Source of the DNA: an uncultured Rhodobacterales bacterium
GTDB lineage: Bacteria; Pseudomonadota; Alphaproteobacteria; Rhodobacterales; Rhodobacteraceae
DNA: 64,000 bases
Reading direction: 5' to 3'
Assembly: GCA_903873585.1 (NCBI GenBank)
Contig: CAIQOV010000021.1
Span: forward strand, 62,001 to 126,000
The notes beneath the pieces are model-generated. The model was given only the letters and a program-made list of their open reading frames with translations, did not search any database and had not been told where the DNA came from. Positions within the stretch are counted from its first letter, which is position 1; the number at the start of each line of letters is the position of its first letter. Made by a program: the position numbers and the translations under genes. Below are positions 53,065 through 64,000 of the stretch, piece by piece.

Positions 53065-55368
53065 TTAGAGTTTAAGCGCGCGCAGTCGCAAGGCGTTGGT
53101 GATGACCGAGACAGAGGACAAGCTCATCGCGGCGGCGGCGATCATGGGCGACAGGACAAGGCCGGTGACGGGGTATAGCAGGCCAGCCGCGATGGGGATG
53201 CACACGGCGTTGTAGCCAAAGGCGAACAGCAGGTTCTGGCGGATATTGCGCATCGTGGCCCGCGACAGGGTGACGGCGCGGGCGATGCCGATCAAGTCCC
53301 CCCCCAGCAGGGTGATGCACGCACTTTCCACCGCCACATCCGATCCCGGACCCATGGCGATGCCCACATCGGCCACGGCCAGCGCGGGGGCATCGTTCAC
53401 ACCGTCGCCCGCCATGGCAACAACATGGCCTTGGGCGCGCAGTTGGGTGACAAGGTCAGCTTTGCCTTCGGGCAGCAGACCCGCGTTGATCTGCGTCAGC
53501 CCCAAGCTTTGCGCCACGGCTTGGGCTGTGGCTTGAGCATCGCCGGTGGCCATCACGATGGTGATGCCTTGGGCGTGCAGTTTGGCCAGCGCTTGGGCGG
53601 TGTTGGGTTTGATGGGATCAGCGGCGGCGATCAGGCCCGACAAGGTGGTGTCTTGGGTTAGGAACATCACGGTCTTGCCCATCGCGCGCAGCGTTTGGGC
53701 TTGGTCTGCGGCCTGCGGGGAAAGGGTGACACCCAGCGTTGCCAGCAAAGCCGCATTGCCCAAGCCCAACCGCGTTGCGCCGTGGTGGGCGACAACGCCC
53801 TGCCCCGCCAAGCTTTCAAAGGCGGTGACGGCGGGAAGGGTCAGGCCCTTATCCCCCGCCGCAGCCAGTATGGCTTTGGCCAAGGGATGGCTTGCGCCTT
53901 GTTCCAGCGCTGCGGCAAGCGTCAGCACAGCGTCAGCGCTGCCAGCGCCCAGATCGACCACATCGCTCACCTCTGGCCGCCCCAGCGTCAGCGTGCCGGT
54001 TTTGTCGATGACCAGCGTATCCACCTTGGCCAAAGCCTCTAGCGCTGCGGCGTCTTTGATCAGCACCCCGACCGAGGCCCCCCGCCCTGCCGCCGTGGTG
54101 ATGGAAATCGGCGTGGCAAGGCCAAGCGCGCAGGGGCAGGCGATGATCAGCACCGACACAGCCGCCGCCATGGCATACAAGAACCCCGGCGTTGGCCCAA
54201 AGATCATCCATCCGGCAAAGGCGGCCAGCGCGACCCCCACCACCGTGGGCACGAACCACGCCGCCACCCTATCGGCCAGTGCTTGAATGGGCGCGCGCGA
54301 ACGGCGGGCGGCGGCGACCATGTCGATGATCTGCGCCAGCACGGTTGCAGCCCCCACCCGTGTGGCGCGCATCACCAGCGTGCCCGATCCGTTCAGCGTG
54401 CCGCCTGTAAGGGCCGCGCCCAGCGTCTTTTCCACGGGCAAGGCTTCGCCCGTCAGCAGGCTTTCATCGACCGAGGAGGCACCTTCCACCACGTCACCAT
54501 CGACCGGCACCTTGTCACCGGCCCGCACCCGCAGCAGGTCGCCTGCGATGATGTTCTCTAGCGGCACTTCAAACGTGCCATCGGGCTGCACGCGAAAGGC
54601 TGTAGCGGGGGCCAGATCCATCAGCGCGCGGATCGCATCGCCGGTACGCGCACGGGCCCGCAGTTCCAGCACTTGGCCCAGAAAGACCAAGGTAATGATG
54701 ACGGATGAGGCTTCAAAATACGTCTCAACCCCCATCGCGCCTTGATAGGCGGGCGGAAAGACCCATGGCGCAAAGGTGGCAAGCAGCGAATAAAGGTAAG
54801 CCGCAGCCACCCCCAGCCCAATCAGTGTCCACATATTGGGGCTGCGATTGAGTAGACTGTCGCGCGCACGTTGGAAAAAGGGCAAGGCGGCCCACAGCAC
54901 AACGGGGCTGGCAAGGGCCGCTTGGGCATAGTTCAGATATGGATGCCACGCCATAGGCAGAGAAAGCCCCAGCATCGGCCCCATGGCCAAGACCACCAAG
55001 GGCACGGACAGGGCCGCCGAAATCCCCATGCGGCGGGTGAAATCGGCCAGTTCGGGCGAGGGCGCGGTAGACGGGGTCATCGGTTCCAACGCCATGCCGC
55101 ATTTGGGGCAGGTGCCGGGGGTGTATTGCACCACTTCTGGGTCCATCGGGCAGGTGTAGAGCACCCCTTTCACCGCCAGCTTGCCGCGCTTCTTGGCATT
55201 GCCGGACAGGTAAAAATATGGGTCGGCCTTAAACCGCGTGCGGCACTTTTCGCCGCAGAAGTGATAGGTCGTGCCCTGATGGTCGTGCTTGCGGCTGGTG
55301 TCGGTGATCTTAACACTCATGCCGCAGACGGGGTCAATTCCAGTGGGGATGTTGGCTGTTTGGTCCAT
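53065..55368 (-). CDS. copA: Copper-transporting P1B-type ATPase with YHS and metal-binding N-domain
   Basis: 767 residues. Exports Cu(I) using ATP. In place of the usual HMA domains, the N-terminus has a YHS domain (DPVCGMSV ... [12 protein letters not shown]) and a small cysteine domain (YTCPMDPEV ... [12 protein letters not shown]). Then come eight membrane segments with the metal motif CPCALG (about 412), the phosphorylation site DKTGTLT (about 453), [10 protein letters not shown] and the TGE actuator loop. ATG 55368 is chosen because AAGGAG lies 6 bases upstream. It follows soeC on the same strand after 76 bp. Confidence 0.94.
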
Positions 55369-55444
55369 GGCACGCTCCTTCAAGGTTAGGCCTTCATCGC
55401 GCAACAAGTGCAGCGCGGCCTTGACCTATAGCAAACAGCGCAAC

Positions 55445-56326
55445 TTATCCTTGGCGCTGGCCGTAATACAGCCCCACAACATGTTCCGCCTGCGCAAAGA
55501 ACAACCAGCGCGAGGCGAGAGCGCCTGTCAGGTGAACCAGTGCTGCCAATGAAAAGGTCAACGGGTGGTGGGGCAGACCCACGATCAGCACCGCAGGCAC
55601 AACCGCCGCAGCGCCAAAGGCGATGGGCCACAGGCGGGATAGGTGTTTGCGTGCAACCACATAGATCATCTCGCGCATCAGGTAATTGGGGCTGGTGTGG
55701 GGTTGTTCAAACACGCTTGCCATGCCCACCACGTCAAGCCCTGTGGCCTTGCCCAAGGTTTGACCGCGCTTGGCAAAGGCCACATCGCCCTTGGTTTTAT
55801 GGGCGAAAAGCGCGCCGATCAGGGCGGCGCAGCCAATCAGCGCGGGCAGGGTTTGGCCCGACAACAGCGCGCCCCCTGTCAGTTCAAACGACAAGAACAT
55901 GGCAGGCACGGTCCAGTTGTTCCAGCGCGGCACGGCGGCGATTTGGGCATAGATCATCGAGGTGGTGAAGACCGTGCCGAAACAGGCCACAGCGCCCACA
56001 AGCCCGATCACGCGCGGCCAGCCAAGGCCCAGCCAGTCTGACAAGGCCACGGGGGCCAGCAGCAGAAGGGTTATCACAGCCGCCCAAGCCTCGCGGCTGA
56101 GCCACGAGGTTTTCCATTGGGTAAAGGCCCGCAAGGCGCGCTGCGGGTTGCCAAGGTGAAAGGTCGATGCCGTAAGCCCGCCCACGGCCAAGGCGTAGCC
56201 AAGCCCCCAATGGGCAAAGGCCAGCCAGCCCACGGGCTGCACAAAGCCAGCACCCAAAAAGGCCAAAAGGCCAAAGCCCATGCCAGATAGAACGGTGAAC
56301 GCGATGACTGATGGTGCAGGATTCAT
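55445..56326 (-). CDS. soeC: Membrane anchor subunit of sulfite dehydrogenase (DmsC/SoeC-like)
   Basis: 293 residues with about eight membrane segments (VIAFTVLSGMGFGLLAFLGAGF, AFHWGLGYAL-type segment, and others), typical of DmsC/NrfD-like quinol-interacting anchors. NPQRALRAFTQWKTSWLSREA is a family-like loop. It should pass electrons from the iron-sulfur subunit to quinone. ATG 56326 overlaps the soeB stop as ATGA; the upstream in-frame ATG would lie inside soeB. Confidence 0.85.
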   Translation of the reverse strand: MNPAPSVIAFTVLSGMGFGLLAFLGAGFVQPVGWLAFAHWGLGYALAVGGLTASTFHLGNPQRALRAFTQWKTSWLSREAWAAVITLLLLAPVALSDWLGLGWPRVIGLVGAVACFGTVFTTSMIYAQIAAVPRWNNWTVPAMFLSFELTGGALLSGQTLPALIGCAALIGALFAHKTKGDVAFAKRGQTLGKATGLDVVGMASVFEQPHTSPNYLMREMIYVVARKHLSRLWPIAFGAAAVVPAVLIVGLPHHPLTFSLAALVHLTGALASRWLFFAQAEHVVGLYYGQRQG

Positions 56327-57063
56327 CCCAATTTCCCCAAAACTTTGTCGAGCCACCCTGCAAAGCCCGTGGCTTGAATGTCTAGCAGCGGGGCCAAAAG
56401 GCTGGCCTCTTGCGGGACGTCTTTCTTGCGCGGGGCGAGGTATTTGTTGGTCGGCTTGGTTTTCAGATCAGGCATCAGATCATAGCCGCCCCGTTCGGCC
56501 ACCAGTTTGGACACGTGGCTTTCAGGGTCGGCAAAGTCGCCAAAGTGGCGCGCGCCTGTCGGGCAGGTGCGCACGCAGGCGGGTTCGCGGTCTTCCTCGG
56601 GCAGGTTCTCGTTATAGATGCGGTCAACGCATAGGGTGCATTTCTTCATCACCCCCGCCGCCTGATCCAATTCGCGCGCACCGTAAGGGCAGGCCCAAGC
56701 GCAAAGGCCGCAGCCAATGCAGGCGTCTTCGTTGACCAGAACGATGCCGTCTTCGGTGCGCTTGTAGCTGGCCCCCGTGGGGCAGACAGTCACGCAAGGC
56801 GCATCTTCGCAATGCAGGCAGGACCGTGGGAAGTTGACGATCTGGGCTGCGCCCACATCAGGTTGCACCTGATAGCTGTGCACGCGGTTTAAGAACGTGC
56901 CCGAAGGGTCTGATCCATAGGGGTTTTGGTCTGACAGCGCAGCCCCGTAGCCCTGATCGTTCCAGCCCTTACAGGCGGTGACGCAAGCCTGACAGCCAAC
57001 GCAAGTGTCAAGGTCAATCACCAGCCCCAGTTTCTTGTCGGTATGGGTGGGAAGTTGGGTCAT
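56323..57063 (-). CDS. soeB: Four-cluster ferredoxin subunit of sulfite dehydrogenase
   Basis: 246 residues. Carries four cysteine clusters for 4Fe-4S centres: DLDTCVGCQACVTACKGWN near the N-terminus, CLHCEDAPCVTVCPTGA, CIGCGLCAWACPYGA, and CTLCVDRI with ACVRTCPTGAR. It links the molybdenum subunit to the membrane anchor. It has no twin-arginine signal, so it is cytoplasmic. It overlaps soeA by 4 bases and soeC by 4 bases. Confidence 0.9.
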   Translation of the reverse strand: MTQLPTHTDKKLGLVIDLDTCVGCQACVTACKGWNDQGYGAALSDQNPYGSDPSGTFLNRVHSYQVQPDVGAAQIVNFPRSCLHCEDAPCVTVCPTGASYKRTEDGIVLVNEDACIGCGLCAWACPYGARELDQAAGVMKKCTLCVDRIYNENLPEEDREPACVRTCPTGARHFGDFADPESHVSKLVAERGGYDLMPDLKTKPTNKYLAPRKKDVPQEASLLAPLLDIQATGFAGWLDKVLGKLG

Positions 57064-59846
57064 GCGCGGTCCTGTCCCTGCGGCACCACTCGGGGGATAG
57101 GTGCGAAATCGGGCGAGGCGTGTTCCATCGGCCCGACATTTTCGATCCGCACCCGCAGATCAAACCAAGCGGCTTGGCCTGTGACAGGATCGGAATTGGA
57201 ATAACGCATCCCGTCACCCTTTTCGGGCAGAAGTTCGGAAATGAGGTGGTTGAGCAAGAAACCCTGATTGGCCTCTGGCGCATCGTCATCCAATGCCCAA
57301 GCACCCTTGCGTTTGCCGATGGCGTTCCATGTCCACACCGTGTTTTCGTTCAGCGCCGCCATATGGGCCACGGGCACGGTGATGCCGCCGTTGGGCGAAG
57401 AGACGCGCGCATAGTCGCCGTCTTTGAACCCTTGCGCCTCCCAAATCTTGGTCGGCACATACAGAAAGTTGCGCCCCCTGATCTGGCGCAGCCATGCGTT
57501 CTGGCTGCCCCAAGAATGGTACATATCCATCGGCCGCTGTGTCAGCGCGTGCACCGGATAGCCCCAACCCGACGCTTCCAAATCGCCAAAGGGCGGATAC
57601 CAGATCGGCAGCGGGTCCATCGCTTGGATCAACCTTGCGCGCAGATGGTCGGGCGGCTGAATCGCCCCGTGCCCTTCGGCGGCCAGTTGAAACTTGCGCA
57701 TCGGTTCGGACCAGATGTTGAACAGGTAAGGCTGCGGGCTTTCGTAGAACGAGGTTTGCACCGCCCAGTTCTGATAAGCCATGTTCCAAGGCTTAAAGAA
57801 CCGCCCCTCCTCTGGCACATGGGCCTGATAAAACCCACCGTTTTCGATATAGGCGGCGATTTGATCGGGGTTGGCATCGCCCCTGCCCTCTTTATCGCCA
57901 TCTGCGCCGCGAAAGCCAATCAAGGGGCCAACGCCGGGGCGGCGGATGTGGTTTTGGATATAGTCGGCGTAGTCTTTGAACTTGGGGCCGCCATCGGCAT
58001 TGACCATCGGGGCCAGCCCCAACCTAGCGCCTAGGTCTAGCAGAACCGACTGAAAGCCGCGCACATCACGGTCGGGTTCACTCACCGGCCAGCGGATGCT
58101 GTCACCGGCAGCGTCAGGCTCGCTGATCGGGCGATCCAGCAGGCTGATGCAATCGTGGCGTTCCAGATAGGTCGTATCGGGCAGGATCAGATCGGCATAG
58201 GCCACCATTTCGGATGCATAGGCATCGGAATAGATGATGCGCGGGATCATGTAGTCGCCGCTTTCGTCTTTGTCGGTCAACATCTCCATCACTTTGGTGG
58301 TGTTCATCGACGAGTTCCACGCCATGTTCGCCATATACAAAAACAGCGTGTCGATGCGGTAGGGGTCGCCCGCATGGGCGTTGGGGATCAGCATATGCAT
58401 CAGGCCGTGGGCAGAAAAGGGGTTCTCCCACGTAAAGGCCTTGTCTATGCGCGCCGGAGAACCATCGTCTTTCAGCGCCAGTTGTTCTGGCCCGCGCACA
58501 TAGCCCAAGTGCGGGCCTGACAGGGGTTTGCCGGGGGCGGTGACGAAATGGGGTGTTGGGTGCGCTTCGACCGGTTTGGGATAGGGCGGCTTGAAACGGT
58601 AGCCGCCGGGAGTTTCCACCGTGCCCAGCACGATCTGCAACAGATGCAGCGCGCGGGCGGTTTGAAAGCCGTTGGAATGGGCCGAAATGCCGCGCATGGC
58701 GTGGAACGACACGGGGCGGCCCAGCATGGTGTCGTGGGTGTCACCGCGAAAATCTGTCCAAGGCTGTTTGATTTCAATCGCTTGGTTAAAGGCCACATCG
58801 GCCAGTTCCGCCGCCAAGGCGCGGATGCGTGCGGCGGGAATGCCGCAACGGGCGGCCACAGCCTCTGGCGCGTATTCGGGGGCAAGGTAGCGTTCGGCCA
58901 TGTGCTGAAACACGGTGCGATGACCCTGCCATGTGGCCCCCAAATCAGGCTGCACGCCTTTGCCATCCCAAGGGGCCGGCGCGCCTGTGCGCTTGTCGAT
59001 CACAAAGGGCTGGCTTTCGGCATTCTTCAGGATCAGGCCCTTTTCAGGGCCTTCGGCTTCATTCACCAGCAAAGGCGCGTTGGTCCAGCGGGCGAGATAC
59101 TCTAGATCAACCTTGCCCGCCTGCAACAGGCAATGCAGCAGCGACAGGATCAGCAGGCCATCGGTGCCCGGCGTGATGCCATACCAATCGTCAGCAATCG
59201 CGTTGTAGCCGGTTCTGATCGGGTTCACCCCAATCACCCGCGCCCCGCGCCCTTTGAGCTTACCCAGACCCATCTTGATCGGGTTGGAATCGTGATCTTC
59301 GGCCACGCCGAACATCACGAACAGCTTGGTGCGCTCCCAATCGGGCTGGCCAAATTCCCAAAAGGCCCCACCGATGGTGTAAATCCCGCCCGCCGCCATG
59401 TTCACGCTGCAAAAGCCGCCGTGGGCTGCGTAGTTCGGCGTGCCAAAGGCCTGCGCCCACCAGCCGGTGAAAGATTGGCTTTGATCGCGCCCTGTAAAGA
59501 AGGCCAGCTTTTCCGGCGCGGTTTCGCGCAAGGGTTTCATCCATGACACGGCTAGGTCTAGCGCCTCGTCCCACGAGATCGGCTCAAACGCGCCCGACCC
59601 GCGCGGGCCAACCCGCTTCAGCGGCTGTTGCAAGCGGCTAGGGGCTGTCACCTGCATGATGCCCGAAGCGCCCTTGGCACACAGCACGCCCTTGTTGACC
59701 GGATGGTCGCGGTTGCCCTCGATATAGCTGACTTTGCCCGATTTCATGTGCACGTTGATGCCGCAGCGGCAGGCGCACATGTAGCAGGTCGTCTTGCGCA
59801 CCTCGTCCGAGACGGCGGGGCTGGTGTTTATCAGAGGCGCGTTCAT
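57060..59846 (-). CDS. soeA: Molybdopterin oxidoreductase, SoeA-type sulfite dehydrogenase subunit
   Basis: 928 residues, DMSO-reductase superfamily. 4Fe-4S site near the N-terminus (CYMCACRCGINV ... GVLCAKGASG), then bis-MGD domains (GRDQSQSFTGWW, GVNPIRTGYNAIAD, SDAYASEMVAYADLILPDTTYLERHD) and the C-terminal MopB dinucleotide-binding domain. It starts MNAPLINTSPAVSDE with no Tat signal. This points to a cytoplasm-facing enzyme such as SoeABC rather than periplasmic DmsA/PsrA. Clustering with xsc and tauE supports sulfite as the substrate. A thiosulfate/polysulfide or DMSO role is the main alternative. Confidence 0.85.
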   Translation of the reverse strand: MNAPLINTSPAVSDEVRKTTCYMCACRCGINVHMKSGKVSYIEGNRDHPVNKGVLCAKGASGIMQVTAPSRLQQPLKRVGPRGSGAFEPISWDEALDLAVSWMKPLRETAPEKLAFFTGRDQSQSFTGWWAQAFGTPNYAAHGGFCSVNMAAGGIYTIGGAFWEFGQPDWERTKLFVMFGVAEDHDSNPIKMGLGKLKGRGARVIGVNPIRTGYNAIADDWYGITPGTDGLLILSLLHCLLQAGKVDLEYLARWTNAPLLVNEAEGPEKGLILKNAESQPFVIDKRTGAPAPWDGKGVQPDLGATWQGHRTVFQHMAERYLAPEYAPEAVAARCGIPAARIRALAAELADVAFNQAIEIKQPWTDFRGDTHDTMLGRPVSFHAMRGISAHSNGFQTARALHLLQIVLGTVETPGGYRFKPPYPKPVEAHPTPHFVTAPGKPLSGPHLGYVRGPEQLALKDDGSPARIDKAFTWENPFSAHGLMHMLIPNAHAGDPYRIDTLFLYMANMAWNSSMNTTKVMEMLTDKDESGDYMIPRIIYSDAYASEMVAYADLILPDTTYLERHDCISLLDRPISEPDAAGDSIRWPVSEPDRDVRGFQSVLLDLGARLGLAPMVNADGGPKFKDYADYIQNHIRRPGVGPLIGFRGADGDKEGRGDANPDQIAAYIENGGFYQAHVPEEGRFFKPWNMAYQNWAVQTSFYESPQPYLFNIWSEPMRKFQLAAEGHGAIQPPDHLRARLIQAMDPLPIWYPPFGDLEASGWGYPVHALTQRPMDMYHSWGSQNAWLRQIRGRNFLYVPTKIWEAQGFKDGDYARVSSPNGGITVPVAHMAALNENTVWTWNAIGKRKGAWALDDDAPEANQGFLLNHLISELLPEKGDGMRYSNSDPVTGQAAWFDLRVRIENVGPMEHASPDFAPIPRVVPQGQDRA

Positions 59847-59944: not shown

Positions 59945-60964
59945 TCAGCCCGCCATCAACGCCAGCGCGTCAATGGCGATTTGCTTTTCTTCTTCGGCAG
60001 GCACCACCACGGCGCGGGGGGCACCGGCCCAATCCAGCCCTTGGGTGATGCGGTCGCGCACCAAGGTGTCATTCTCGCCAATGCCGCCGGTGAAGGCCAA
60101 CAGATCGACCCCGCCCATCGCCGCAATCATCGACCCTGCATGGCGGATCGCCCAATAGATAAAGTGGTCAATCGCAAAGCGCGCTTCTGGCGTTCCCGCT
60201 TCGTGCAAAGCACGCATATCAGCCACACCGCCCAAACCCAGCAGGCCCGAGGCGCGGTTCACGATCTGCGCCGCCCCTTCCAGCCCATGCACCTCGGCCA
60301 GTTTCAGCACGGCGTTCGCGTCAATATTGCCGCTGCGCGTGCCCATGGTTAGGCCAGAGACGGGGGAGTAGCCCATGGTTGTCGCAACCGAAGCGCCATT
60401 GAGGATGGCACAAAGTGACGCGCCATTGCCCAAATGCAGCCCCAGCACGCGCTTGGGCAAGTCGCCCTGCGTGCGAAGGTTGCGCACCAAACTGGCGTAG
60501 CTGATCCCGTGGAACCCATAGCGGCGCAGACCCAAATCCTCGGCCTCTTTGGGCAAGGCATAGCGGGTCGCGACATCTGGGTTGGTGGCGTGAAAGCCGG
60601 TGTCAAAGCTGGCATATTGCGGCAAATCGGGCGCTAATCGCGCCAAAGCCTCTATCCCCGTCAGGTTGGCGGGATTGTGCAAGGGGGCAAGGGGGATGCA
60701 AGCACGGATGCCGTCTAGAACGGCAGGGGTAACGCGCAGCGTGTGGGTCAGATCGCGGCCACCATGCACCACACGGTGGGCAGCACCCGACAGTTGGGCG
60801 GGGGTGATAGCCATCTCGGCCAGCCCCTGCTCCAAAGCGTCCAGATGCGTTGCCGCCCCGCCCGTGCCGATCCGTTCCGCCCGCGCCTGCGCGACTTGGG
60901 CCAAACCTGCGTCAAACACCGCAAGCTTAAGCGAGGATGATCCGGCATTGACGACCAGCAGCAT
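59945..60964 (-). CDS. ackA: Acetate kinase (short form)
   Basis: 339 residues, about 55 fewer than typical AckA. ASKHA-fold signatures are kept: LLVVNAGSSSLKLAVFD, HRVVHGGRDLT, PLAPLHNPANL, ASFDTGFHA, RYGFHGISY, LHLGNGASL, MGYSPVSGLTMGTRSGN and AFTGGIGEND. It would convert acetyl phosphate, the Xsc product, to acetate with ATP formation. Its ATG directly abuts the tauE stop, so it belongs to the xsc transcription unit. Confidence 0.92.
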   Translation of the reverse strand: MLLVVNAGSSSLKLAVFDAGLAQVAQARAERIGTGGAATHLDALEQGLAEMAITPAQLSGAAHRVVHGGRDLTHTLRVTPAVLDGIRACIPLAPLHNPANLTGIEALARLAPDLPQYASFDTGFHATNPDVATRYALPKEAEDLGLRRYGFHGISYASLVRNLRTQGDLPKRVLGLHLGNGASLCAILNGASVATTMGYSPVSGLTMGTRSGNIDANAVLKLAEVHGLEGAAQIVNRASGLLGLGGVADMRALHEAGTPEARFAIDHFIYWAIRHAGSMIAAMGGVDLLAFTGGIGENDTLVRDRITQGLDWAGAPRAVVVPAEEEKQIAIDALALMAG

Positions 60965-61708
60965 TCACAACACCGATTTCAACAGGCCAAGTGCTGCCAG
61001 CCCCGCCAGCAGCAAAATCGCAAAGCGGCGAAAATCCTGCGGATCGGTGCGCAGAAAATGGCGGCTGCCCAGCCAGTTGGCCAAGAACACCAAGGGCAAC
61101 CCGATGAGCGATATCCAAAGCGTGTCCCATGTCACCATGCCGTTCCACCAATAGATCGGCGCGGAATACAGGTCGAGCATGGGGAAATAGGCCACCAAGG
61201 TCGCACGAAACACCGCAGGCGACATGGCTTGGGCGGCAAAGAAGGCCGCCACCGGCAAGCCCCCCATCCCCGGCGCATTGGCAAGGCCCGACACCAAGCC
61301 CGCGCCCAGATTGGCCACTGGCCCAACGGTGCCGCGCAGCTTCCAGCCCGCCAGCAAAATCAGGCTCATCGCCAGCACATAGCCCGAAATCACCGCCCGC
61401 GCGGCATCTTCCGAGATTGAGGTCAGCGCCCAAATGCCAATCGGCATCCCCACCATCGCGCCCACCAGCAGCAAGCCCACACGGCGCCAATCAATATCTT
61501 TCCAGATGCCAGACAGTGCTTGCCCCGTCATCACGGTTTCCCACACCACCACCACCGCCACAAAATGCAGCGGGTTGGTAACAAGGGCCGAAGATGCAAT
61601 CGTCAGGGCCGAAAAGCCAAAGCCGGAATAGCCGCGCACAAAGCCCGCAACCAAGACGGTAACGGCCATCCAGCCCAGGCCGATGGGCGACAGATCAAAC
61701 GGGATCAC
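60965..61708 (-). CDS. tauE: TauE/SafE-family sulfite exporter
   Basis: 247 residues, about eight membrane segments in two halves (MAVTVLVAGFVRGYSGFGFSAL, ANLGAGLVSGLANAPGMGGLPVAAFF), the family signature. Members export sulfite or sulfoacetate-type anions. The GTG start overlaps the phnX stop. Next to xsc, it most likely removes the sulfite that Xsc releases, in parallel with oxidation by SoeABC. Confidence 0.9.
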   Translation of the reverse strand: MIPFDLSPIGLGWMAVTVLVAGFVRGYSGFGFSALTIASSALVTNPLHFVAVVVVWETVMTGQALSGIWKDIDWRRVGLLLVGAMVGMPIGIWALTSISEDAARAVISGYVLAMSLILLAGWKLRGTVGPVANLGAGLVSGLANAPGMGGLPVAAFFAAQAMSPAVFRATLVAYFPMLDLYSAPIYWWNGMVTWDTLWISLIGLPLVFLANWLGSRHFLRTDPQDFRRFAILLLAGLAALGLLKSVL

Positions 61709-62502
61709 GGACGCTCGCCGCGCGCCAAACGCCCTTCGATGTCATCCAGAACGGCATCCATATCGGCCACGGAATCAATGACATAATGCGCGCCGGTGCG
61801 GCGCAGATCGGCATAGGCGGCATCGCGCATCTTGGCGAATTCTGCCGGTGTCAACGCCGCCGTTTCCGCAGGGTTCAGCCCGAAAGCATTGCCCGAAACG
61901 GCCACCCCAACGGTCCAGCAACCCGCATTCAAGCCTTCGCCAATGCCCACGCCGGTGTCATCGACCTTGACAACCGTATGCGCCGGCCAAACGCCCAAAT
62001 CCAGAAAGGTGCGGTACATCATCATCGCCGAGGGCCGCGCTTCGGACAGATCGCCGGCGCAGACCAGATTGTCAGGCGCGTAGCCCTGCGCTGCCGCCAA
62101 GGGCAGCACCTTGGCCATGATAGACCGAGTGTATCCCGTGGTTGACCCGATCTTCATGCCCCGCGCGCGCATCCGGTTGATGGCAGGCACAGCGCCTTCG
62201 ATCATGGTGCAATAGTCGGTCACGGCTTCCACGTTCATCGGCACAAACACCTCATAAACGCGGTCAATCGCCGCTTCATCGGGGGCCGCGCCTTGCGCCT
62301 TTTCCCAAGCCGCAGCAATGCGGGGCACGGCCATCAGCGTTTTGATATGGTCGCGCTTGGCCATGCCCATCGGGCCACGGGCTTCGGCCACTGTAATGTC
62401 GACGCCAAACTGCTTGAAGGTCTTCACAAAAACCCCCATCGGCGCTTGGCTGCCGTGGTCAATCACGGTGCCCGCCCAATCAAATACCGCCGCTTTTAAC
62501 AT
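61705..62502 (-). CDS. phnX: Phosphonoacetaldehyde hydrolase (phosphonatase)
   Basis: 265 residues, HAD superfamily. Splits phosphonoacetaldehyde into acetaldehyde and phosphate. Nucleophile region VFDWAGTVIDHG (Asp 8), the cap-domain Schiff-base lysine in MGMAKRDHIKTL (about 49), IGSTTGYTRSIM and the C-terminal VKVDDTGVGIGEGLNAG all match phosphonatase. ATG 62502 overlaps the preceding oxidoreductase stop as TGATG, with GGGAGA upstream. It overlaps tauE by 4 bases. Confidence 0.93.
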   Translation of the reverse strand: MLKAAVFDWAGTVIDHGSQAPMGVFVKTFKQFGVDITVAEARGPMGMAKRDHIKTLMAVPRIAAAWEKAQGAAPDEAAIDRVYEVFVPMNVEAVTDYCTMIEGAVPAINRMRARGMKIGSTTGYTRSIMAKVLPLAAAQGYAPDNLVCAGDLSEARPSAMMMYRTFLDLGVWPAHTVVKVDDTGVGIGEGLNAGCWTVGVAVSGNAFGLNPAETAALTPAEFAKMRDAAYADLRRTGAHYVIDSVADMDAVLDDIEGRLARGERP

Positions 62503-63623
62503 CACGCTCTCCCGTAAATCTCTGCAATGGTTTCCTCGCCGATGGCAAAGGAGGTGCTGGCCCCGGTGCCGCTGGTGACGATCACCAAGCGGGTTTGATC
62601 GTCAATCGTCTCGCGCATCATGGTTTCAGGGCCAGAGGCGTAGGTACCATTCCAACGCTCGGTAATCTGCGCGCCGGGGACGTTGAGCACTTGGTGCAAT
62701 TCGTCCATGATCAGATCGTCGACCTCGGCCCGTTGGAAGGGCGAGGGCGACCAATCGTAATGATGACTGTCGCCCACGATCAACCCACCATCTGACCCCT
62801 GCACGACGATCAAATGAATACCTTCCGCCAAGGTGCGCGGCTGTTCGGCGCGCAGGCGGGCTTTGATCGGTTCAGATTCGGGCAGTTCGGCATAGCCCAA
62901 ATAGCGCACCAGACTTTGGTCTGACATGATGGAACCGGGCAGCTTGATCGGCTTTGCAGGCATCACCTTCATCATATGCAAGCGGCAGCGGGTGATCTGG
63001 TGGCGGGCGATCACTTGCGGGTACAGGGTCAGCATATCATCACCGGGGCAGACCACGACCTGTGTCGCCTCGATCACGCCTGAAGTTGTCAGCACCCGCC
63101 CCTTTTGCACCTCTTTCACCAAAGTCTTGCGAAAAAAGGTCACGCCAAGGCTTTCGATCCAAGCGGCCAGTTTCGGAATGGCAAAGCGGCTTTCCACACG
63201 GCGTTCATGGCTTGACCATAAAGCGCCCTGAATGGGCTTGCCCGACAAAACCGCACCGTGTTGGGCCACGGTTTGCGCAGCCGTCAACACATGGCACCCT
63301 TGCCCCATTTCAGTGCGCGCAAAGGCTTCCAGACAGTCCATCGCCTCGGGCCGCTGGGCCACGACCAGCAAGCCCTGATGTTCCACGGGAATGCCCGCCT
63401 TGGGGGCAACCTCTTCCCACACATCACGAGAGCGCATTGCACGGCGGTAGCAATCGCCCTGCTGCTGGCCCGTCACCGTGACAAAGCCAAAATTGCGGAC
63501 CGAGGCGCCAACCGCCTCGGTCTCACGGTCTATCACCACGACCTTTAGGCCCCTGCGGGACGCGGCAAGGGCATGGCCCAGCCCCAGTATCCCCGCCCCC
63601 ACAATGGCCAGATCGTAGCGCAT
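62502..63623 (-). CDS. FAD-dependent amine oxidoreductase of the phosphonate-associated type
   Basis: 373 residues, DAO/glycine-oxidase fold. FAD site YDLAIVGAGILGLGHALAASRRG, then VIDRETEAVGASVRNFGFVTVTGQ and a C-terminal TSGTGASTSFAIGEETI. This resembles the TIGR03364-type (HpnW) family that accompanies phnX and is proposed to oxidise aminoethylphosphonate derivatives such as N-methyl-AEP. It begins 1 bp after xsc and overlaps phnX by 1 base. Other amine or aminosulfonate substrates cannot be excluded. Confidence 0.85.
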   Translation of the reverse strand: MRYDLAIVGAGILGLGHALAASRRGLKVVVIDRETEAVGASVRNFGFVTVTGQQQGDCYRRAMRSRDVWEEVAPKAGIPVEHQGLLVVAQRPEAMDCLEAFARTEMGQGCHVLTAAQTVAQHGAVLSGKPIQGALWSSHERRVESRFAIPKLAAWIESLGVTFFRKTLVKEVQKGRVLTTSGVIEATQVVVCPGDDMLTLYPQVIARHQITRCRLHMMKVMPAKPIKLPGSIMSDQSLVRYLGYAELPESEPIKARLRAEQPRTLAEGIHLIVVQGSDGGLIVGDSHHYDWSPSPFQRAEVDDLIMDELHQVLNVPGAQITERWNGTYASGPETMMRETIDDQTRLVIVTSGTGASTSFAIGEETIAEIYGRA

Positions 63624-63624
63624 C

Positions 63625-64000
63625 TTACACCAACTGCGGGCGCATATCGGCGGCAGAGATACCGGCGACTTCGACAGGTTTTTTCATGGCGTCACGGCGG
63701 AAGGGTTCGCCAAGCTCTTGGTTGATCATCGCCTCGATCAAGGTGGTCTTGCCATGGTTCATCTGATCGTCAATCGCCTTGTGCAGGGCGGCGGTCAGCT
63801 CTTCTTGGGTGCGGGCCACAACACCTTGCAAGCCGCAGGCCTTGGCGATGCCCGCGTAAGAGACGCCTTCGTCCAGCTCTGTGCCCACGAAGTTGTCATC
63901 ATACCACAGGGTCGAGTTGCGCTTTTCAGCGCCCCATTGGTAGTTGCGAAAAACCACTTGGGTGACAGCAGGCCATTCGCCCCGGCCAATCGCCGTCAGT
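63625..64000 (-). CDS. xsc: Sulfoacetaldehyde acetyltransferase, C-terminal end (cut by window)
   Basis: The last 124 residues of a thiamine-diphosphate enzyme. The frame is open to the window edge, so the start lies outside. AIGRGEWPAVTQVVFRNYQWGAEKRN, LWYDDNFVGTELDEG, and ELGEPFRRDAMKKPVEV match the C-terminus of Xsc, which converts sulfoacetaldehyde and phosphate to acetyl phosphate and sulfite. Related acetolactate synthases lack the QWGAEKRN/PFRRDAMKKP region. Downstream genes on the same strand use the products: acetate kinase, TauE and SoeABC. Confidence 0.9.
   Translation of the reverse strand, partial: LTAIGRGEWPAVTQVVFRNYQWGAEKRNSTLWYDDNFVGTELDEGVSYAGIAKACGLQGVVARTQEELTAALHKAIDDQMNHGKTTLIEAMINQELGEPFRRDAMKKPVEVAGISAADMRPQLV

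Follow-up and report, generated by a model that had tools for sequence, protein, structure and literature searches.

Why should a pair of phosphonate genes lie inside what looks like an operon for taurine degradation? The question is raised by a 64,000-nucleotide stretch of DNA (the window; positions 62001-126000 of the 129645-base contig C21) from the 3.2 Mb genome of an uncultured Rhodobacterales bacterium (G000). Here, the genes for sulfoacetaldehyde acetyltransferase (xsc), a pbfD-type flavin adenine dinucleotide (FAD)-dependent amine oxidoreductase, phosphonoacetaldehyde hydrolase (phnX), a sulfite exporter family protein (tauE) and an acetate kinase family protein (ackA) follow one another on the minus strand. 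As judged from gene order across related genomes, pbfD-phnX is an insert between xsc and tauE of a rhodobacterial taurine operon. The explanation that we consider probable is that a TauR-controlled taurine operon of a Pseudorhodobacter-like rhodobacterium gained this pair, and that one transcript would serve to degrade both kinds of C2 amine.

Gene order and family assignments

The C-terminal part of xsc (63625..64000), recognised by Xsc family models, stands at the end of the window; the full gene on the contig reaches the window-equivalent position 65400, past the window end, and encodes 591 amino acids (aa). It is followed by pbfD (62502..63623; 373 aa; TIGR03364), phnX (61705..62502; 265 aa; TIGR01422; ATG start at 62502 with an alternative GTG start at 62505), tauE (60965..61708; 247 aa; GTG start; PF01925) and ackA (59945..60964; a short form of 339 aa; PF00871). 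On the coding strand, which was read directly, the TAA stop of xsc is followed by 1 nt and then by the ATG of pbfD, and one base is common to the TGA of pbfD and the ATG of phnX (TGATG). The TGA of phnX overlaps the GTG of tauE by 4 bp (GTGA), and the ATG of ackA comes directly after the TGA of tauE with a gap of 0. The xsc-pbfD and pbfD-phnX coupling was preserved in the loci L062, L064, L065 and L066 and slightly altered in L073 (L and G numbers are our labels for loci and genomes). The original prediction, made from the letters of the window alone, had described these five genes as one coupled minus-strand unit; its coordinates and junctions were confirmed and the order recurs.

The names proposed there for Xsc, PhnX, TauE and AckA were borne out by family scores. 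Xsc scored 1031.6 bits with NF005713, over the cut-off, and 924.5 with the equivalog-level model TIGR03457 (cut-off 676.4); PhnX reached 324.9 bits with TIGR01422 (cut-off 220), TauE 80.9 bits with PF01925 (cut-off 32.6) and AckA 271.1 with PF00871 (cut-off 22), its score of 261.5 with TIGR00016 lying under the cut-off of 293.4. The AckA length of 339 aa was also found in L062 and L064, and the protein of L227 has about 380 aa; as the C-terminal end of the short AckA resembles that of L227, the missing part probably lies inside the protein. The FAD enzyme scored 423.1 bits with TIGR03364 (cut-off 285.1), and its matches to solved structures were weak and distant (best E 7.7e-05). Two other assignments were rejected: a look-alike hydrolase in place of PhnX, for which the PhnX-like model TIGR03351 gave 82.7 bits, under its cut-off of 218.9, against the higher score with TIGR01422, and a ThiO or sarcosine-type oxidase in place of the FAD enzyme, TIGR02352 giving 70.4 bits, far under its cut-off of 250.8.

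The PhnX residues D8, K49 and H52 align with Asp12, Lys53 and His56 of the Bacillus cereus phosphonatase (2iof), which are directly catalytic (PMC11203657). Relative to 2iof, Cys22 is replaced by Ser and Gly185 by Asp, and replacements of these two residues are two of the three reported in active Achromobacter enzymes (PMC11203657). PhnX retains 45 of the 47 columns with a conservation of at least 95% among 65 other proteins, departing at G155A (not in G077, L009 and L006) and P159A (in all seven xsc-linked rows). Similarly, 91 of the 94 columns at least 95% conserved in 74 others are retained by PbfD, the departures being W59Y (6/7 linked rows), P138S (not in G077 and L009) and L236Q (not in L009). 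Ratios of nonsynonymous to synonymous change (dN/dS, Nei-Gojobori method NG86) between the window genes and those of L064, L065 and L066 were 0.053-0.101 for pbfD, 0.029-0.084 for phnX, 0.026-0.050 for xsc, 0.080-0.279 for tauE and 0.122-0.177 for ackA, figures that are rough since several dS values are near or above 1. Both pbfD and phnX are under purifying selection.

Distribution and history of the gene pair

In the genus of the window, phnX (E <= 1e-40) was found in 8 of 16 genomes and xsc in 14, the two genomes without xsc being 80% and 75% complete. Seven of the eight phnX-bearing species, the window's own included, carry a contiguous xsc-pbfD-phnX-tauE; G160, the eighth, has its xsc and its phnX at the ends of contigs, with tauE-ackA after phnX and no pbfD seen. 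G068, from another genus of the family, is the ninth carrier, and its insert is contiguous. In all six genomes of the genus that have xsc and are without phnX, xsc is directly followed by tauE, with ackA after tauE in each of the five whose contig continues. An assembly artefact or a chance arrangement was rejected, as the order recurs in several assemblies; L062-L066 and L073 are the same assemblies as G149, G159, G161, G158, G077 and G068 and were counted once.

The view that the two pathways are usually separate, held in the original prediction, agrees with the wider survey. PhnX exceeded the TIGR01422 cut-off in 14 of the 149 genomes of the family and reached E <= 1e-40 in 39 of the 385 genomes of the class, and xsc (E <= 1e-150) was present in 20 of the 52 genomes of these merged sets. 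The two genes adjoin in G000, G077 and G068, and none of the remaining 17 genomes has both side by side on one contig: in 6 the two share a contig at a distance of about 80 kb to 2.2 Mb, and in 11 they lie on different contigs. Adjacency would strictly still be possible in at least 5 of these 11, where one gene is about 0.4 kb or less from a contig edge, and the Xsc is merely 46-51% identical in 5 of the 17 non-adjacent genomes. Among 390 genomes sampled at the order level, PhnX matching that of the window at E <= 1e-100 was found in two, the window's genome and G555, the latter with two copies (75% and 74% identical to the window's). A plasmid search for PbfD with an E limit of 1e-60 gave 14 records, all below 60% identity.

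We also surveyed the best 80 of 292 related pbfD loci, in which phnX adjoins pbfD in 70 (68 directly downstream and 2 directly upstream) and xsc adjoins it in 6. In one of the related loci, L067, the pair stands behind a phnS2-phnT2-phnU2 transporter set for 2-aminoethylphosphonate (AEP), whose scores are all over the cut-off (TIGR03261 482.8, TIGR03265 510.5 and TIGR03262 740.1 bits). One Rhodobacterales metagenome genome holds two separate pbfD-phnX pairs (L067 and L068). Eight pbfD relatives (L078, L086, L087, L090, L092, L093, L096 and L114), seven from Ancylobacter/Xanthobacteraceae and one from Rhizobiales, had no PhnX detected within 10 kb, and in them the FAD enzyme may therefore belong to a different route.

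In the PhnX tree (72 proteins) the seven xsc-linked rows form one clade, with a support of 100 in the Shimodaira-Hasegawa-like approximate likelihood ratio test (SH-aLRT), within alphaproteobacterial PhnX. Six of the seven linked rows form a clade (100) in the PbfD tree (81 rows); the fork at which the PbfD of L073, this clade and one unlinked row meet is not resolved, a placement with which a single origin of the linked PbfD is compatible. The xsc tree (20 rows, among which G068 and four others have odd base composition) places the eight genus carriers in one clade (100/99) and G068 elsewhere.

Putative taurine control and neighbouring genes

The TauR of Rhodobacter capsulatus binds direct repeats of CTGGACYTAA (PMC5320631). 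Counted from the xsc start, an exact CTGGACYTAA begins 63 bp upstream and a copy with 2 mismatches 86 bp upstream; the two are 23 bp apart and both lie just past the window. The site was surveyed in 13 xsc upstream regions, from 7 phnX-bearing and 6 phnX-lacking loci. In all seven phnX-bearing loci the exact repeat is present, and 23 bp upstream of it lies a further copy with 2 mismatches; the phnX-lacking loci have a one-mismatch copy in 6/6 and a second copy (<=1 mismatch) 23 bp upstream in 3/6. In L002, the widened pattern CTGGMCYTAR occurred twice against 0.07 expected from shuffles, a figure which is indicative only, as the pattern was widened after seeing the site. A promoter and terminator scan gave no more sites than were found in shuffles. 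In the xsc-tauE gap of the phnX-lacking loci L221 (8270-8375) and L223 (8360-8470) a hairpin rich in G and C followed by T's was seen by eye and is possibly an attenuator; by eye, a hairpin of this type is absent from the coupled junctions of the carriers. The expression of phnX has been described as Pho-, substrate-, CbrAB- or NtrBC-controlled (PMC10574752), from which the control by TauR that the predicted site and the coupling point to would differ.

The original prediction had foreseen that a regulator and a transaminase would be met beyond position 64000, and on the same strand past the window end we found, after the rest of xsc, a 488-aa MocR-type regulator and the last 163 aa of a class III aminotransferase. 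The latter runs off the contig in G000 and is complete (457 aa) in the sister genome G077, where gene order is identical. The regulator has GntR and aminotransferase domains and is probably TauR, a name based on gene position and the binding site because its best NCBIfam model is PdxR; a TauR model is absent among the 25 NCBIfam matches listed for it. The aminotransferase matches PF00202, with no Tpa-specific model among the NCBIfam matches listed, and its gene position suggests that it may be named tpa.

On the other side of the operon, a soeA-like gene for a molybdopterin subunit (57060..59846; 928 aa) begins 98 bases downstream of ackA on the same minus strand, in the order of soeA (SPO3559) of Ruegeria pomeroyi, and is followed by genes for a soeB-like 4Fe-4S subunit (56323..57063, with a 4-bp overlap with soeA) and a soeC-like membrane anchor (55445..56356; PF04976 DmsC), whose true start may be further in. 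Synteny with R. pomeroyi DSS-3 and the subunit domains suggest that these three are soeABC and would convert Xsc-derived sulfite to sulfate. In DSS-3, soeC, soeB, soeA, pta and tauR are SPO3557, SPO3558, SPO3559, SPO3560 and SPO3562 (PMC4334477), and xsc is SPO3561 (PMC9870897). The genes bisC, dmsC and hybA are TauR-regulated in some Rhodobacterales (PMC5320631) and are plausibly the same three soeABC-like genes. In the NCBIfam search the SoeC-like protein was assigned to no family and the SoeA-like protein matched no Soe-specific model. The operon extent of 59945-64000 given by the original prediction holds for its five genes and leaves out the soeABC-like ones downstream.

Directly after ackA, soeABC-like genes are also present in L033 (G077), L062, L064 and L225 (G154). 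They lie about 4.4 kb further past ackA in the phnX-lacking G152 and about 3 kb further in G053, which belongs to another genus, and were not detected in the stretches examined of the phnX-lacking G150, G153 and G162. After the soeABC-like genes of the window, a heavy-metal P-type ATPase look-alike encoded on the same strand (53065-55407) was recognised by eye, and a similar open reading frame is present in L062.

Proposed route and its alternatives

In the explanation that we favour, taurine would turn on one transcript via TauR. Tpa would convert taurine into sulfoacetaldehyde, which Xsc would convert with phosphate into acetyl phosphate and sulfite; AckA would turn acetyl phosphate into acetate and adenosine triphosphate (ATP), and the sulfite would be exported by TauE or oxidised by the SoeABC-like enzyme. 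PbfD would form phosphonoacetaldehyde from N-methyl-AEP and/or AEP without PhnW, and PhnX would cleave it to acetaldehyde and phosphate. As the product of PhnX is acetaldehyde, AckA would serve the Xsc arm alone, and reuse by Xsc of the phosphate from PhnX is stoichiometrically possible. With phosphate in ample supply, the cassette would provide aminophosphonate-derived nitrogen and carbon. Parts of this scheme are inferred from sequence: that the genes are co-transcribed and induced by taurine, that TauR, Tpa and SoeABC are named correctly, which substrates are used and that AEP is imported.

We profiled 15 genomes, 9 carriers and 6 non-carriers, some of the carriers being incomplete. PhnW was over the cut-off in none of the nine carriers and in one of the 15 overall, a non-carrier, and the result for the carriers matches what has been reported of PbfD enzymes, namely that they stand in for PhnW (PMC10590968). 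Of the enzymes described there, PbfC, PbfD1 and PbfD2 oxidised N-methyl-AEP, both PbfD readily oxidised AEP too and none reacted with taurine (PMC10590968), which speaks against the earlier idea that the FAD enzyme supplies sulfoacetaldehyde from taurine. The original prediction had proposed either a mixed-substrate pathway or a repurposed enzyme, and the mixed-substrate pathway fares better.

We take COG0665 to be of the D-amino-acid oxidase type. A repurposed FAD enzyme, which we hold to be unlikely, would convert N-methyltaurine (or taurine) into sulfoacetaldehyde for Xsc, with PhnX as a passenger or acting on another aldehyde. The FAD gene sits inside the taurine operon, the TauR regulons of some Rhodobacterales are known to include a COG665 oxidoreductase (PMC5320631), the stem of the genus PbfD clade is long, nine mostly conservative substitutions mark the linked rows (W59Y in 6/7 and R90Q in 7/7 of these rows among them), and the window PbfD departs at three of the 94 highly conserved columns, all of which would fit with such a change of role. 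It is disfavoured, however, because the three catalytic residues of PhnX and nearly all conserved columns of PbfD and PhnX are kept; moreover, phnX travels with pbfD and is under purifying selection, and the characterised Pbf enzymes leave taurine untouched. In another scheme, which appears quite unlikely, the pair would act as a guard: an induced Tpa or other transaminase would make phosphonoacetaldehyde from AEP, which would accumulate or block Xsc, and PhnX (with PbfD for the methylated amine) would clear it. Sulfoacetaldehyde and phosphonoacetaldehyde are isosteric, the carriers have no PhnW over the cut-off and a class III transaminase gene lies just upstream on the same strand, as a guard would have it; but PbfD would itself produce phosphonoacetaldehyde, contrary to the purpose of a pure guard, and the use of AEP by Tpa is without support in this analysis.

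That pbfD-phnX merely landed at this site and is tolerated, its co-location being metabolically meaningless, we regard as highly improbable. The arrangement is rare, its nine carriers comprising one genus and one further genome, and a close PhnX is sparse in the order-level sample (2/390 at E <= 1e-100), which is in line with chance; against it, the tight coupling is preserved in eight contiguous cases and in a second genus, and purifying selection acts on both cassette genes. We give some limited credence to the reading that the taurine machinery is a generic C2 amino-oxyanion pathway, in which the importer and Tpa would also take AEP, TauR would sense taurine as a proxy for both nutrients, the two isosteric aldehydes would be cleaved in parallel by PhnX and Xsc, and the phosphate from PhnX would feed Xsc and hence the formation of acetyl phosphate and ATP. 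If so, phosphonate use would be gated by a sulfonate signal and not by phosphate starvation.

Several findings weigh against the favoured explanation, that a TauR-controlled taurine operon gained the pair. The xsc tree forces two appearances or changes of the cassette, at odds with one simple insertion, so that at least one move or loss of the cassette took place independently of xsc. The genus PbfD clade has a stem of 0.36 changes per column (0.16 in the linked PhnX clade), and nine PbfD positions set the xsc-linked rows apart as a group, because of which some shift of PbfD specificity appears possible. The PdxR model NF052282 scores 326.8 bits with the regulator, over its cut-off of 320. The soeABC-like genes of phnX-lacking relatives do not lie directly behind ackA, and an acetaldehyde dehydrogenase is missing among the coupled genes. 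As to import, a phnS2-type AEP importer (TIGR03261) was over the cut-off in none of the 15 genomes, and so the pair arrived without a transporter of this type or lost it; phnS2T2U2 genes are absent beside the window's pair. No taurine-binding TauA was over the cut-off in the window's genome. Since the matches of G000 to TIGR03261, TIGR01729 and TIGR02326 are all below the cut-off, it is without an identified dedicated importer for AEP or taurine. Finally, as G000 has carbon-phosphorus (C-P) lyase genes, AEP could be a phosphorus source without the cassette.

Both halves of the locus are known systems. It shares with the taurine genes of R. pomeroyi DSS-3, as far as these are described in the available text (PMC4334477, PMC9870897), a regulator (here probably TauR), Xsc, an acetyl-phosphate step, the putative SoeABC and the order by locus number, but it has pbfD-phnX after xsc, and ackA and tauE instead of pta; alphaproteobacterial TauR regulons contain tpa, xsc, tauE and either pta or ackA (PMC5320631). 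Like the hydrolytic PbfD-PhnX pathway for AEP and N-methyl-AEP (Zangelmi et al. 2023, PMC10590968), it has a TIGR03364 enzyme directly before phnX and no PhnW over the cut-off, but it differs from what the available part of that report describes in having no adjoining phnS2T2U2 and in its placement after a TauR-like site within a taurine operon. With phnWX operons (PMC10574752) it has in common PhnX as the C-P cleaving step, but here PhnW over the cut-off is lacking and the predicted control is by TauR, a regulator that the available text of that source does not mention. The COG665 enzyme of TauR regulons is likewise an oxidoreductase under TauR; in the available text (PMC5320631) its reported neighbours are an alkylhydroperoxidase and a Tpa-related transaminase, with PhnX unmentioned.

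It is the joining of the two systems in one coupled, probably TauR-controlled operon that is probably new, and this union is modestly surprising. No published report of a coupled taurine-phosphonate operon was found among the matches listed, in a search that covered few subscription papers. If the favoured explanation is true, C-P cleavage would be triggered by taurine and not by phosphate hunger, and the turnover of organic sulfur and organic phosphorus would be linked at the level of one transcript, which suggests a cell that treats two look-alike nutrients as one food on a taurine trigger. A clean comparison is possible between sister species that have the cassette at this site and those that lack it there.

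The C-P lyase was found in 11 of the 15 profiled genomes, including the window's (PhnJ by PF06007), so that phosphorus alone does not require the cassette in these 11. In G000 its genes PhnJ and PhnM lie in L228 (7996-13860; G000:C6). A protein beside the C-P lyase genes was considered as PhnD and rejected, being a glycosyltransferase by Pfam. Two PhnJ matches each were found in G149, G154, G155, G156 and G161.

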